Source: a virus. From it: 29,552 nt of DNA. The stretch is taken from positions 1 through 29,552 of the IMG/VR virus record IMGVR_UViG_3300047297_000053, one strand, 5' to 3'. The notes under the pieces were generated by a model. It did not search any database. It was not told where the DNA came from and saw only the letters and a program-made list of their open reading frames with translations. Position numbers and translations under genes: made by a program. Below, one piece after another: positions 13,036 to 15,467 of this stretch (position 1 is its first letter; every line of letters starts with the position of its first letter).

Positions 13036-13512
13036 TCAGAGCGGAGAATATGTATTGACGAGCTTAGACCTTTCGTGCAAATGCAAACCCAGTAAGGATA
13101 GAGATTCGACATATAATTTGTTGGTTGTTCGGTCATATTCTACAAGGGATTCGTACACTTGCACGGAGTTGATGATGGTTGAGTGATCACGATGAAGAAT
13201 CTTGCCGATGGAAAGATAGGTCATCTTCAAATGCTTTCTACATAAATAGCAAAACAAGTGCCGAGCATCCATAATGTTTTGAGTGCGTACCTTGTCAACG
13301 ATTGCATCAGGTGTGACATCATACACGATTGAAACAACTCGCATTGCTTCAGTCCATTCCGCATCTATCTCGTTTATCTTGCATCTTGGGTTGATGATTT
13401 CGTCTTTGAGTTTCTTGACCTCGTCAATTCGTTTCTGATTAAGTTCGGCAACAACACCCCGAAGGCGTTTAACTTCTTGTTTTAGTAGGTGGGTTTCTTG
13501 GTAGTGGTTCAT
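13036..13512 (-). CDS. DnaA domain IV-like DNA-binding protein
   Basis: 158 residues. The N-terminus (about 5-45) is a coiled coil (LLKQEVKRLRGVVAELNQKR). Residues 52-120 match domain IV of DnaA: WTEAMRVVSIVYDVTPDAIV, ARHLFCYLCRKHLKMTYLS, IGKILHRDHSTIINSV. The RDHST segment is the DnaA signature that contacts the DnaA box. The AAA+ domain of DnaA is absent, so it cannot act as a full initiator. It overlaps the DnaB-type helicase gene by 4 bp and so belongs to the replication operon. I infer that it marks the phage origin, or competes with host DnaA. ATG at 13512. Confidence 0.8.
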   Translation of the reverse strand: MNHYQETHLLKQEVKRLRGVVAELNQKRIDEVKKLKDEIINPRCKINEIDAEWTEAMRVVSIVYDVTPDAIVDKVRTQNIMDARHLFCYLCRKHLKMTYLSIGKILHRDHSTIINSVQVYESLVEYDRTTNKLYVESLSLLGLHLHERSKLVNTYSPL

Positions 13513-14747
13513 AGTCGTTCTTCATACATTGTGCGTTCACCGATGAATGTCGTTTTGATTGTGTAGCATTCACCGTGACGATTCTTTGCAATAATCAGTT
13601 CGGCTTCTTCTTGCTGGAGCTTCTCACCTGAATAGTATGCCGGGCGAAATGGGAACATCACAACATCCGCATCTTGTTCAATACTTCCACTCTCACGGAT
13701 ATCACTCAGCATCGGTCTCTTGTCCGCTCTCTCCTCACATTTGCGTGATAACTGTGCCAACACTATGACGGTGATATTTAGTTCCTTAGAAAGCAATTTT
13801 AAGTTTCTTGATATTTCTGCAATCTCTTGTTCTCGATTTGTCTTTGTTCCTTTGATTAACTGGATGTAATCAATCACCAACAACTCAAGTCCGTGTTTTG
13901 CTTTGTGAATCTTGGCTTTGGATTTGATTTGTTGAATACTGCAATTTGGATCATCGTCAATGTAGAATTGCACGGTCTGATTGTTTGCTGAATTAATAAG
14001 TTGCTCAACCTCAAACTCGCGAAGGTTGGCATTCCTAATCTTCCAATTTGCAAGGTCGGTGATCAATGACAAGTATCTTTTGACAAGTTGCTCATTGCTC
14101 ATCTCCAGCGACAAGAACAAACCCTTTCCACCTATCTTGGCGAAGTCATACATCAGCGACAAAGCAAGTGCCGTTTTGCCTTGTCCAGGTCGTGCAGCCA
14201 TCACAATCAAATCACCGTTGTTCCATCCTCCCAATACCCGGTCAAGTCCAGCCCATCCCGTTTGTCTTCCCGTGAGCTTGTCACCTCTTTGCACCGCCTC
14301 AATAATTGCATCAACGGTCTTGTTGGTAACTGCTGAAATCTGCACGGGATCATTGATTGTTGTGAACTTGGTGTTGTCAACCATTGTTTGAACATTGGTG
14401 AGTATCTCTTTTAAGTCAGCGTTCAAATCCAAGTTTGTGATGTTCTCAACGAATTGTTTTTTAAGGTACTTGTGTTCAAGTGCTGGAAGGTGACTGCTGA
14501 TGTTTGGCATTCCATAAACATTCTGAGTGAGTTGAACGATTGTGACCATCTCCGCACGATTAAACTTTTTGCCTAATGTCAGCACATCAATCTCATCGTT
14601 GTTGATGTACATCTCCAACATCACCTCAACAATCCGTTTGTTGAGTGGTGTTTCAAACCATTGCGATTTGATTCTCGGCAACATTGCACGAGTTTGGTCG
14701 TAGAATAGTAGTTGACCGATTATGTAGTCCTCAAGTTCGTTCATCAT
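13509..14747 (-). CDS. dnaB: Replicative DNA helicase, DnaB family
   Basis: 412 residues. An N-terminal helical domain (EDYIIGQLLFYDQTR and onward) is followed by the RecA-like core: Walker A AARPGQGKT (184-192), Walker B LLVIDYIQLI (D293), H4-type AQLSRKCEERADKRP, and RESGSIEQDADVV near 351-363. This is a hexameric helicase that unwinds DNA 5'-3' at the fork and works with a primase. No primase gene is recognised in the window, so host DnaG is probably used. The start overlaps the end of the DUF6291-like gene by 17 bp, consistent with an initiator/loader-helicase pair. Confidence 0.93.
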   Translation of the reverse strand: MMNELEDYIIGQLLFYDQTRAMLPRIKSQWFETPLNKRIVEVMLEMYINNDEIDVLTLGKKFNRAEMVTIVQLTQNVYGMPNISSHLPALEHKYLKKQFVENITNLDLNADLKEILTNVQTMVDNTKFTTINDPVQISAVTNKTVDAIIEAVQRGDKLTGRQTGWAGLDRVLGGWNNGDLIVMAARPGQGKTALALSLMYDFAKIGGKGLFLSLEMSNEQLVKRYLSLITDLANWKIRNANLREFEVEQLINSANNQTVQFYIDDDPNCSIQQIKSKAKIHKAKHGLELLVIDYIQLIKGTKTNREQEIAEISRNLKLLSKELNITVIVLAQLSRKCEERADKRPMLSDIRESGSIEQDADVVMFPFRPAYYSGEKLQQEEAELIIAKNRHGECYTIKTTFIGERTMYEERL

Positions 14748-15336
14748 ATTCTTTCAAAGAAAACACTTTTCGGTTGATAATTTGTGGAGTACTTAGATTA
14801 TTTGTAGAATTTTTTTTCCAAGTCATAACACACGACTTCCAATCCTTTATTTTGTTCTTGCCAATCACCCAACCTTTAGCTTCATAAAAATAGAAGAAAC
14901 GCTCTGCGAGATTCTCCATTCCTTTTTCAGCCATATAGATTTCGATTTCTTGAATAGTGGGTTTGATAAAACCCTTATTTACTTTTATATCATTTACAGT
15001 AGCAGTATCATTAGCATTTACATTATCAGCTTTTTTGGGTTCTTCAAAAAAGGGTTGGGTTATTTGGGTTATTTCATCCTTCTTTGGTCTTCCACCTTTT
15101 GCACCATTAAACTTTTGCTTATCAATGTAATCGTCATATTTACGCAAATCCCTCTTCAGTTGCGTTTTAATGGGTTCAAATGCGATGGTTAATAGTAAGT
15201 CATCACACGGTGGATTTTCATCGTTGACATATGCAAAGATGTGTTTGATTAATTTACCCGCAATTTCATCAGGTAGTTTGTTGAATACTCCTTGTTGATC
15301 GCAATAGAGTAGAAATGATTTTTTGTCTTTAGCCAT
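14731..15336 (-). CDS. Replisome organiser/helicase loader-like (DUF6291-like)
   Basis: 201 residues. The N-terminal 85 (KSFLLYCDQQGVFNKLPDEI to KFNGAKGGRPKK) match the DUF6291-type domain common in Bacteroidota phages and mobile elements next to replication genes. A low-complexity linker (DNVNANDTATVND) separates it from a C-terminal module ending in GWVIGKNKIKDWKSCVMTW, like the last part of phage replisome organisers and DnaD-like proteins. I infer origin binding or DnaB loading. ATG at 15336 follows immediately after a hairpin and seven U (15337-15389), which suggests control by attenuation. Confidence 0.75.
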   Translation of the reverse strand: MAKDKKSFLLYCDQQGVFNKLPDEIAGKLIKHIFAYVNDENPPCDDLLLTIAFEPIKTQLKRDLRKYDDYIDKQKFNGAKGGRPKKDEITQITQPFFEEPKKADNVNANDTATVNDIKVNKGFIKPTIQEIEIYMAEKGMENLAERFFYFYEAKGWVIGKNKIKDWKSCVMTWKKNSTNNLSTPQIINRKVFSLKEYDERT

Positions 15337-15389
15337 AAAAAAATCCCTCTCAAATCGTAGTAGTAGAAGTACACACGATTCAAAAGGGA
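15337..15389 (-). terminator. Leader hairpin with U-tract directly before the replication gene (attenuator candidate)
   Basis: In minus-strand RNA, UCCCUUUUGAAUCGU (15389-15375) pairs with ACGAUUUGAGAGGGA (15358-15344) over 15 bp. The three non-Watson-Crick pairs are all G.U wobbles, while the plus strand would have C.A mismatches. The loop is 16 nt. Seven U follow (15343-15337), then the AUG of the replication gene. This is the form of an intrinsic terminator placed so that a paused or terminated transcript ends at the start codon. GTAGAAG at 15413-15419 (coding strand GUAGAAG) is complementary to CUUCUAC in the loop, so an alternative fold is possible. Confidence 0.65.
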
Positions 15390-15435
15390 AATAGGGGTTT
15401 AACTTTCGGCATCTTCTACATACCAGTTAACAGTT

Positions 15436-15467
15436 CAAATATAATACATCACACGGAATATCCCAAT
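15436..15467 (-). promoter_or_regulatory. Promoter, Bacteroidota type (replication operon)
   Basis: Minus strand: ATTG (15467-15464, three of four TTTG bases), 20 bp, TATATTTG (15443-15436). Transcription would begin near 15430 and give a leader of about 95 nt containing the hairpin at 15337-15389. The -33 box overlaps the end of the upstream gene. Confidence 0.5.

Follow-up and report, generated by a model that had tools for sequence, protein, structure and literature searches.

A conserved RNA leader with a predicted kissing-loop terminator in front of the replication genes of flavophages

Contacts between RNA loops take part in the replication control of several plasmids. In ColE1, RNAI and RNAII carry fully complementary 7-nt loops, and the Rop protein recognises the kissing shape and not its sequence. 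In rep attenuation of the pT181/pIP501 type, a terminator hairpin is situated just before the replication-initiator gene and is controlled by a loop-loop contact. Within a single leader, a kissing loop acts on a terminator in the guanidine-IV riboswitch (GGAM-1 or mepA motif), where it hinders formation of the complete terminator stem and leads to read-through; the kiss was proposed to stretch the linker and to keep the outer terminator pairs open, while the linker becomes shorter as the terminator stem grows, which works against the kiss (PMC7736828, PMC11611296).

Here, a phage leader is described that combines an early hairpin, a linker and a terminator with mutually complementary loops. 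The window is the whole stretch of 29,552 nt that was analysed, i.e., positions 1 to 29,552 of the IMG/VR record IMGVR_UViG_3300047297_000053, and the leader is on its minus strand.

The leader and the replication operon in the window

The leader has a length of about 95 nt after the promoter and contains, in this order, P1/P2, a linker, P3, U7 and the ATG (Table 1). The transcript probably starts at about position 15431. The promoter, the 15-bp hairpin and the seven U that end at the ATG were all found as described in the original prediction, and the three non-Watson-Crick pairs of P3 are indeed G.U pairs in the minus-strand RNA, in addition to 12 Watson-Crick pairs. P3 of the window is stable (-20.8 kcal/mol), it is directly followed by U7, and its stem covaries in related leaders, and, thus, it is a predicted intrinsic (Rho-independent) terminator. 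A simple terminator scanner missed P3 owing to a bulge inside the stem. The predicted folding was also borne out for the whole region 15330-15435, which had an energy of -29.0 kcal/mol compared with -17.4 +/- 3.05 kcal/mol for shuffled sequences (z = -3.8), and none of 200 shuffles was as good. The segment GUAGAAG had been noted as complementary to the terminator loop; it turned out to be the 7-nt loop of P2 and not part of loose leader sequence, which refines the earlier description. L2 and L3 are mutually complementary and both closing stems are conserved, as is characteristic for a kissing-loop RNA.

Table 1. Positions of the leader elements and of the operon genes in the window
Feature	Positions	Strand	Sequence or evidence
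Bacteroidota-type promoter (TTTG-n19-TAnnTTTG type)	15436..15466	-	TTGG (15466-15463), 19 nt, -7 box TATATTTG (15443-15436)
Stem P1, enclosing P2	15399..15430	-	UUAAC (15430-15426) with GUUAA (15403-15399)
Hairpin P2	15408..15424	-	GGUAU (15424-15420) with AUGCC (15412-15408)
Loop L2, apical on P2	15413..15419	-	GUAGAAG, 7 nt; kissing partner of L3
Linker, P1/P2 to P3	15390..15398	-	9 nt
Hairpin P3, terminator stem	15344..15389	-	UCCCUUUUGAAUCGU (15389-15375) with ACGAUUUGAGAGGGA (15358-15344)
Apical stem in P3	15372-15370 with 15362-15360	-	GUA/UAC, 3 bp; closes L3
Loop L3, apical on P3	15363..15369	-	CUUCUAC, 7 nt; complement of L2
U7 tract	15337..15343	-	3' of P3; adjoins AUG (15336-15334) in this phage
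First operon gene, DUF6291 protein (primosomal/replication-protein-like)	14731..15336	-	PF19808, E=1.4e-24; phrog_6451 primosomal, E=4e-6
DnaB-like replicative helicase	13509..14747	-	PF03796, E=3.4e-86
Protein with DnaA C-terminal (origin-binding HTH) domain	13036..13512	-	PF08299, E=3.9e-17

The similarity of the DUF6291 product to primosomal proteins is weak. Upstream, an exonuclease and an Erf annealing protein are encoded on the same strand as the leader. "Replication operon" is a fair name for the set of DUF6291, DnaB and DnaA-domain genes.

The junction of P2 and L2 (15415-15421, minus strand) contains AUGUAG, a start codon directly followed by a stop codon. AUGUAA or AUGUAG is frequent at this junction in close relatives, but is absent in others, which have, e.g., AUGUCG, and the start-stop motif is probably incidental.

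Covariation and distribution of the leader

The DUF6291 protein was used as a query, which led to 80 viral loci. In most of them the same leader was situated directly upstream, with loops that were different, yet mutually complementary. Ten loci have another gene ahead of DUF6291, and there the leader stands before that gene instead, i.e., the position of the element follows whichever gene opens the operon.

In an alignment of 23 leaders all five helices were kept, including the pseudoknotted L2:L3 helix, 92.4% of the cells were paired, and two-sided changes were seen in 120 cells versus 41 after shuffling. With a covariance model the set was enlarged to 61 leaders, and covariation was scored on the 57 distinct rows. 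Overall, 96.0% of the cells were paired, with two-sided changes in 396 cells versus 106 after shuffling. The kissing helix L2:L3 was 96.3% paired and had two-sided changes at all seven pairs; the values were very similar for P1 (96.0%, four of five pairs), P2 (98.2%, five of five pairs) and the apical stem of P3 (98%, three of three pairs), and P3 including its base covaried together with the other helices. When the partners of the whole structure were slid by 1-3 columns as a control, only 39-50% were paired. The U-tract was nearly invariant in A1/A3. Related phages, thus, carry two-sided compensatory changes in both arms, and the selection on the RNA that had been claimed was borne out.

It had also been proposed that the complementarity of GUAGAAG and CUUCUAC acts as a switch, in that an alternative fold blocks the hairpin. 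A conserved role was found for the L2:L3 contact, but not for an extended alternative hairpin: pairs that extend L2:L3 beyond the 7-bp core were paired in 65.0% of the cells versus 64.5% after shuffling, and their covariation was at the shuffle level. A two-state attenuator with a conserved long antiterminator helix is therefore not supported. Because the flanks do not covary and both closing stems do, the selected contact is the loop-loop kiss. The comparative analysis, thus, shows that the loop of the early hairpin P2 and the later terminator loop L3 are selected for complementarity, just behind a Bacteroidota promoter, and by the same evidence the element itself is well supported as an RNA structure.

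In isolate phages whose DUF6291 proteins are distant, the covariance model barely or never matched the leaders, yet the same plan is kept. Blind and promoter-anchored scans recovered the layout without sequence similarity in Lillamyvirus/Muminvirus (loops of the replication leader UGAGACG/CGUCUCA), Elemovirus (replication leader, UGAGAGC/GCUCUCA), the Cellulophaga phages phi19:3 (Baltivirus) and phi13:2 (CUCACAA/UUGUGAG), the Olleya phage Harreka_1 (GUGGUGG/CCACCAC), the Flavobacterium phage 11b (GGGCAGG/CCUGCCC) and the Polaribacter phage P12002L. The latter was chosen merely as another Bacteroidota phage, and a new element was found directly before its primosomal gene. The Cellulophaga phage phi10:1 has an element with a variant promoter box, which was recognised by eye and missed by the scan. 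The hosts of isolate phages with the element before replication genes, thus, belong to Flavobacterium, Cellulophaga, Olleya and Polaribacter.

Across 132 loci a detector found the element in 104, which represent 66 distinct leaders with 29 distinct loop pairs, and the remaining loci mostly contain a 6-bp subtype (L034 group), covariance-model leaders, a long-P3 subtype or operon-internal genes. The genes behind the element encode DUF6291, DnaB, primase or primosomal proteins. The spacing between the -7 box and L2 was 13-19 nt in nearly all 66 distinct leaders, and the linker from the end of P2 to P3 comprised 14-23 nt across most families.

To judge specificity, a strict scan rule was used, which demanded TAnnTTTG, a hairpin loop 8-24 nt further on and a 7-nt Watson-Crick complement within a terminator loop. 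This promoter-anchored scan, the thresholds of which were fixed after the first cases were known, revealed 62 distinct elements in 1.42 Mb, compared with a chance expectation of about 1-2, and practically all of these elements precede replication genes. The expectation is based on a locally shuffled null, in which 9.1 Mb gave 8 matches, corresponding to 1.6 per 1.83 Mb. A generic detector without promoter anchor found 6 of 72 terminators, while 1.4 were expected; this detector has a real background, and therefore the conclusions rest on the anchored scan and on covariation. No promoter-anchored match was found in the phages 6H, RAP44, phi12:1, P2559S, P12024L and Bacteroides B40-8, and the scanned replication loci of gut, Porphyromonas and Vibrio phages contained no element. 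In nine Bacteroidota genomes, which were searched for copies in hosts, the covariance model R1 gave just weak matches (E 0.09-0.9). One promoter-anchored match in a Flavobacterium MAG, at a prophage-like DUF6291 locus (L103:1658-1760), is a candidate element; its loops are CAUCCAC/GUGGAUG, and it lies 281 nt ahead of DUF6291.

Several additional observations were made at related loci. In the Lillamyvirus snork6-2 (L082:2597-2685) a second kissing terminator precedes a NUMOD4/HNH endonuclease gene. Its loops, GUCGUCG/CGACGAC, are not those of the replication leader in this phage, and hemulen has the same hairpin (L092:648-685). A relative of the primosomal gene of P12002L (L199:2361-2457) has a candidate element just upstream, with the loops GACAUCA/UGAUGUC. 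Four loci (L080, L144, L158 and L164) have a different terminator hairpin of 68 nt just upstream of the DUF6291 start; its apical part is more complex, loop complementarity is possible, e.g., AAGUUAGG/CCUAACUU in L164, and this group may represent a second subtype. In an elemovirus (L083:3364-3439) a tRNA-Ala gene is situated about 180 nt upstream of the promoter of the replication leader.

Predicted mechanism and alternative explanations

The covariation indicates that the kiss is selected and is neutral with regard to the direction in which it pushes termination; in addition, intermolecular L2:L3 pairing would produce the same covariation as a kiss in cis. The leader RNA probably decides whether the replication genes are switched on. 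We favour, with a probability of roughly 0.58, that it attenuates transcription of the phage replication operon in cis and that it does so as a kissing-loop terminator, in which the kiss would lead to read-through. L2 and L3 would meet only once the polymerase nears the end of P3. While it passes P3, L2 would grab L3 ahead of the closure of the lower P3 stem, and the kissing complex, together with the short linker, would hinder full closure of P3 beside the U-tract, so that the polymerase would read through into the DUF6291-dnaB-dnaA-like genes. If the kiss is not formed, the terminator would close and transcription would yield only the RNA of about 95 nt. The balance may be set by folding kinetics, i.e., by polymerase speed or pausing, temperature and Mg2+, or, alternatively, by a hypothetical protein of the host or the phage, for which the shape of the kissing complex counts and not its sequence. 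As had been proposed originally, the leader may act in replication timing under the control of a factor; that the kiss counteracts termination is an inference, and so is the signal.

Nested folding was applied to transcripts of the 66 distinct leaders. When they ended 12-16 nt short of the complete P3, L2 was paired with the L3 side in the minimum free energy structure of 47-51 of the leaders, and at full P3 in none. In a crude rod-and-linker model, the results of which exclude Lillamyvirus, the linker, which P1 shortens to 9-10 nt in the family of the window leader, was too short for the kissing complex and a complete P3 when P1 was closed, and the strain was only about 2-8 kcal/mol when P1 was open or absent. 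In families without P1 the linker of 15-23 nt could span the kiss and the complete P3 together, and therefore steric exclusion is not forced there. This would also suit the opposite sign, which we regard as unlikely, namely that the kiss helps P3 to fold or to stay closed. Termination would then be the default, and replication would be turned on when the kiss is broken, either by a factor of the phage or the host or by an arriving ribosome or polymerase. The joint covariation of all helices, the base of P3 included, is also in line with it. However, P3 alone is already strong across the leaders (-12 to -35 kcal/mol), with no obvious need for help, and the guanidine-IV riboswitch, the one studied relative of the architecture, works the opposite way. 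By analogy with this riboswitch, antitermination by kissing is the sign that we favour.

A somewhat more doubtful explanation is that the terminated RNA of about 95 nt is itself the product, i.e., a stable phage small RNA that is folded by the kiss and acts elsewhere, for instance as a decoy for a host factor or in superinfection or copy control via its loops in trans; read-through would then be a by-product. The element is always situated before the replication operon or, once, before another gene, and never stands alone, although the RNA would have a defined 5' end at P1/P2 and a defined 3' end at U7. The two elements of the Lillamyvirus genome use different loop pairs, as expected if cross-talk is avoided, but a sign of diversifying selection was not seen: the pairwise difference was 0.365 for L2 and 0.354 for L3, compared with 0.393 for P2 and 0.429 for P3. 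The loops, thus, change no faster than the stems, and this lends no support to a diversification as in plasmid incompatibility.

It is very unlikely that the leader controls translation, with P3 beside the start codon hiding the initiation region and the kiss tuning the hiding. U7 abuts the ATG in the window and in most close relatives, as would be expected, but the distance from the U-tract to the ATG ranges from 6 to 49 nt across the 66 distinct leaders, and in distant families, in which the ATG is 19-49 nt downstream, the terminator and the kiss are retained. What is kept throughout is, therefore, the terminator and not the access of ribosomes, and this speaks for an attenuation of transcription rather than for an occlusion of the ribosome.

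Comparison with known RNA elements

In the window no family of Rfam 15 scored above the gathering threshold, and a relaxed search of the region gave only chance-level scores. A tRNA-like element was ruled out, because ARAGORN found none. A literature search, in which subscription journals were thinly covered, revealed no description of this leader element. We regard the kissing-loop leader as a new RNA family, while kissing-loop attenuation as such is already known.

Flavophages belong to the phages that are common in aquatic environments, and, to our knowledge, little is known about their regulation. As a tentative generalisation, the chances of which we put slightly below even, a large, unrecognised family of ligand-free kissing-loop antiterminators might gate the replication module in several flavophage genera, with only the complementarity of the 7-nt loops being selected, and with a read-out by polymerase folding kinetics or a structure-specific protein. 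If true, a shared RNA switch would stand at the head of flavophage replication genes, and the control of terminators by kissing loops, described for one riboswitch class, would be extended to include phages as well as loops that vary freely. Loop swaps that keep the complementarity would be a clean system to study in which way a terminator is overcome or assisted by a tertiary contact, and the loops could act as orthogonal, programmable attenuators in Bacteroidota.

The plasmid systems of the pT181/pIP501 type work with an antisense RNA as a second molecule and with a pre-emptor helix, whereas in the phage leader the complementary loop is part of the same transcript and an extended pre-emptor is not conserved. 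The ColE1 kiss joins two RNAs and controls a primer, while both loops of the phage kiss belong to a single leader, which contains an intrinsic terminator. With guanidine-IV the phage leader has in common the upstream hairpin, the short linker, the terminator with a kissing loop, U7 and the start codon, and also here the kissing contact involves the terminator loop. In spite of this identical order of parts, a small-molecule riboswitch, e.g., a guanidine-IV relative, is highly improbable, as Rfam gave no match, the highly conserved loop nucleotides of the ligand pocket are replaced by 29 freely varying loop pairs, and replication genes instead of sugE/mepA-type transporter genes lie behind the leader. 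Unlike in guanidine-IV, the phage kiss normally consists of seven Watson-Crick pairs of freely varying sequence. Taken together, the phage leader would work like the guanidine-IV platform, yet it is no member of that class, because the ligand nucleotides are absent and the genes differ.
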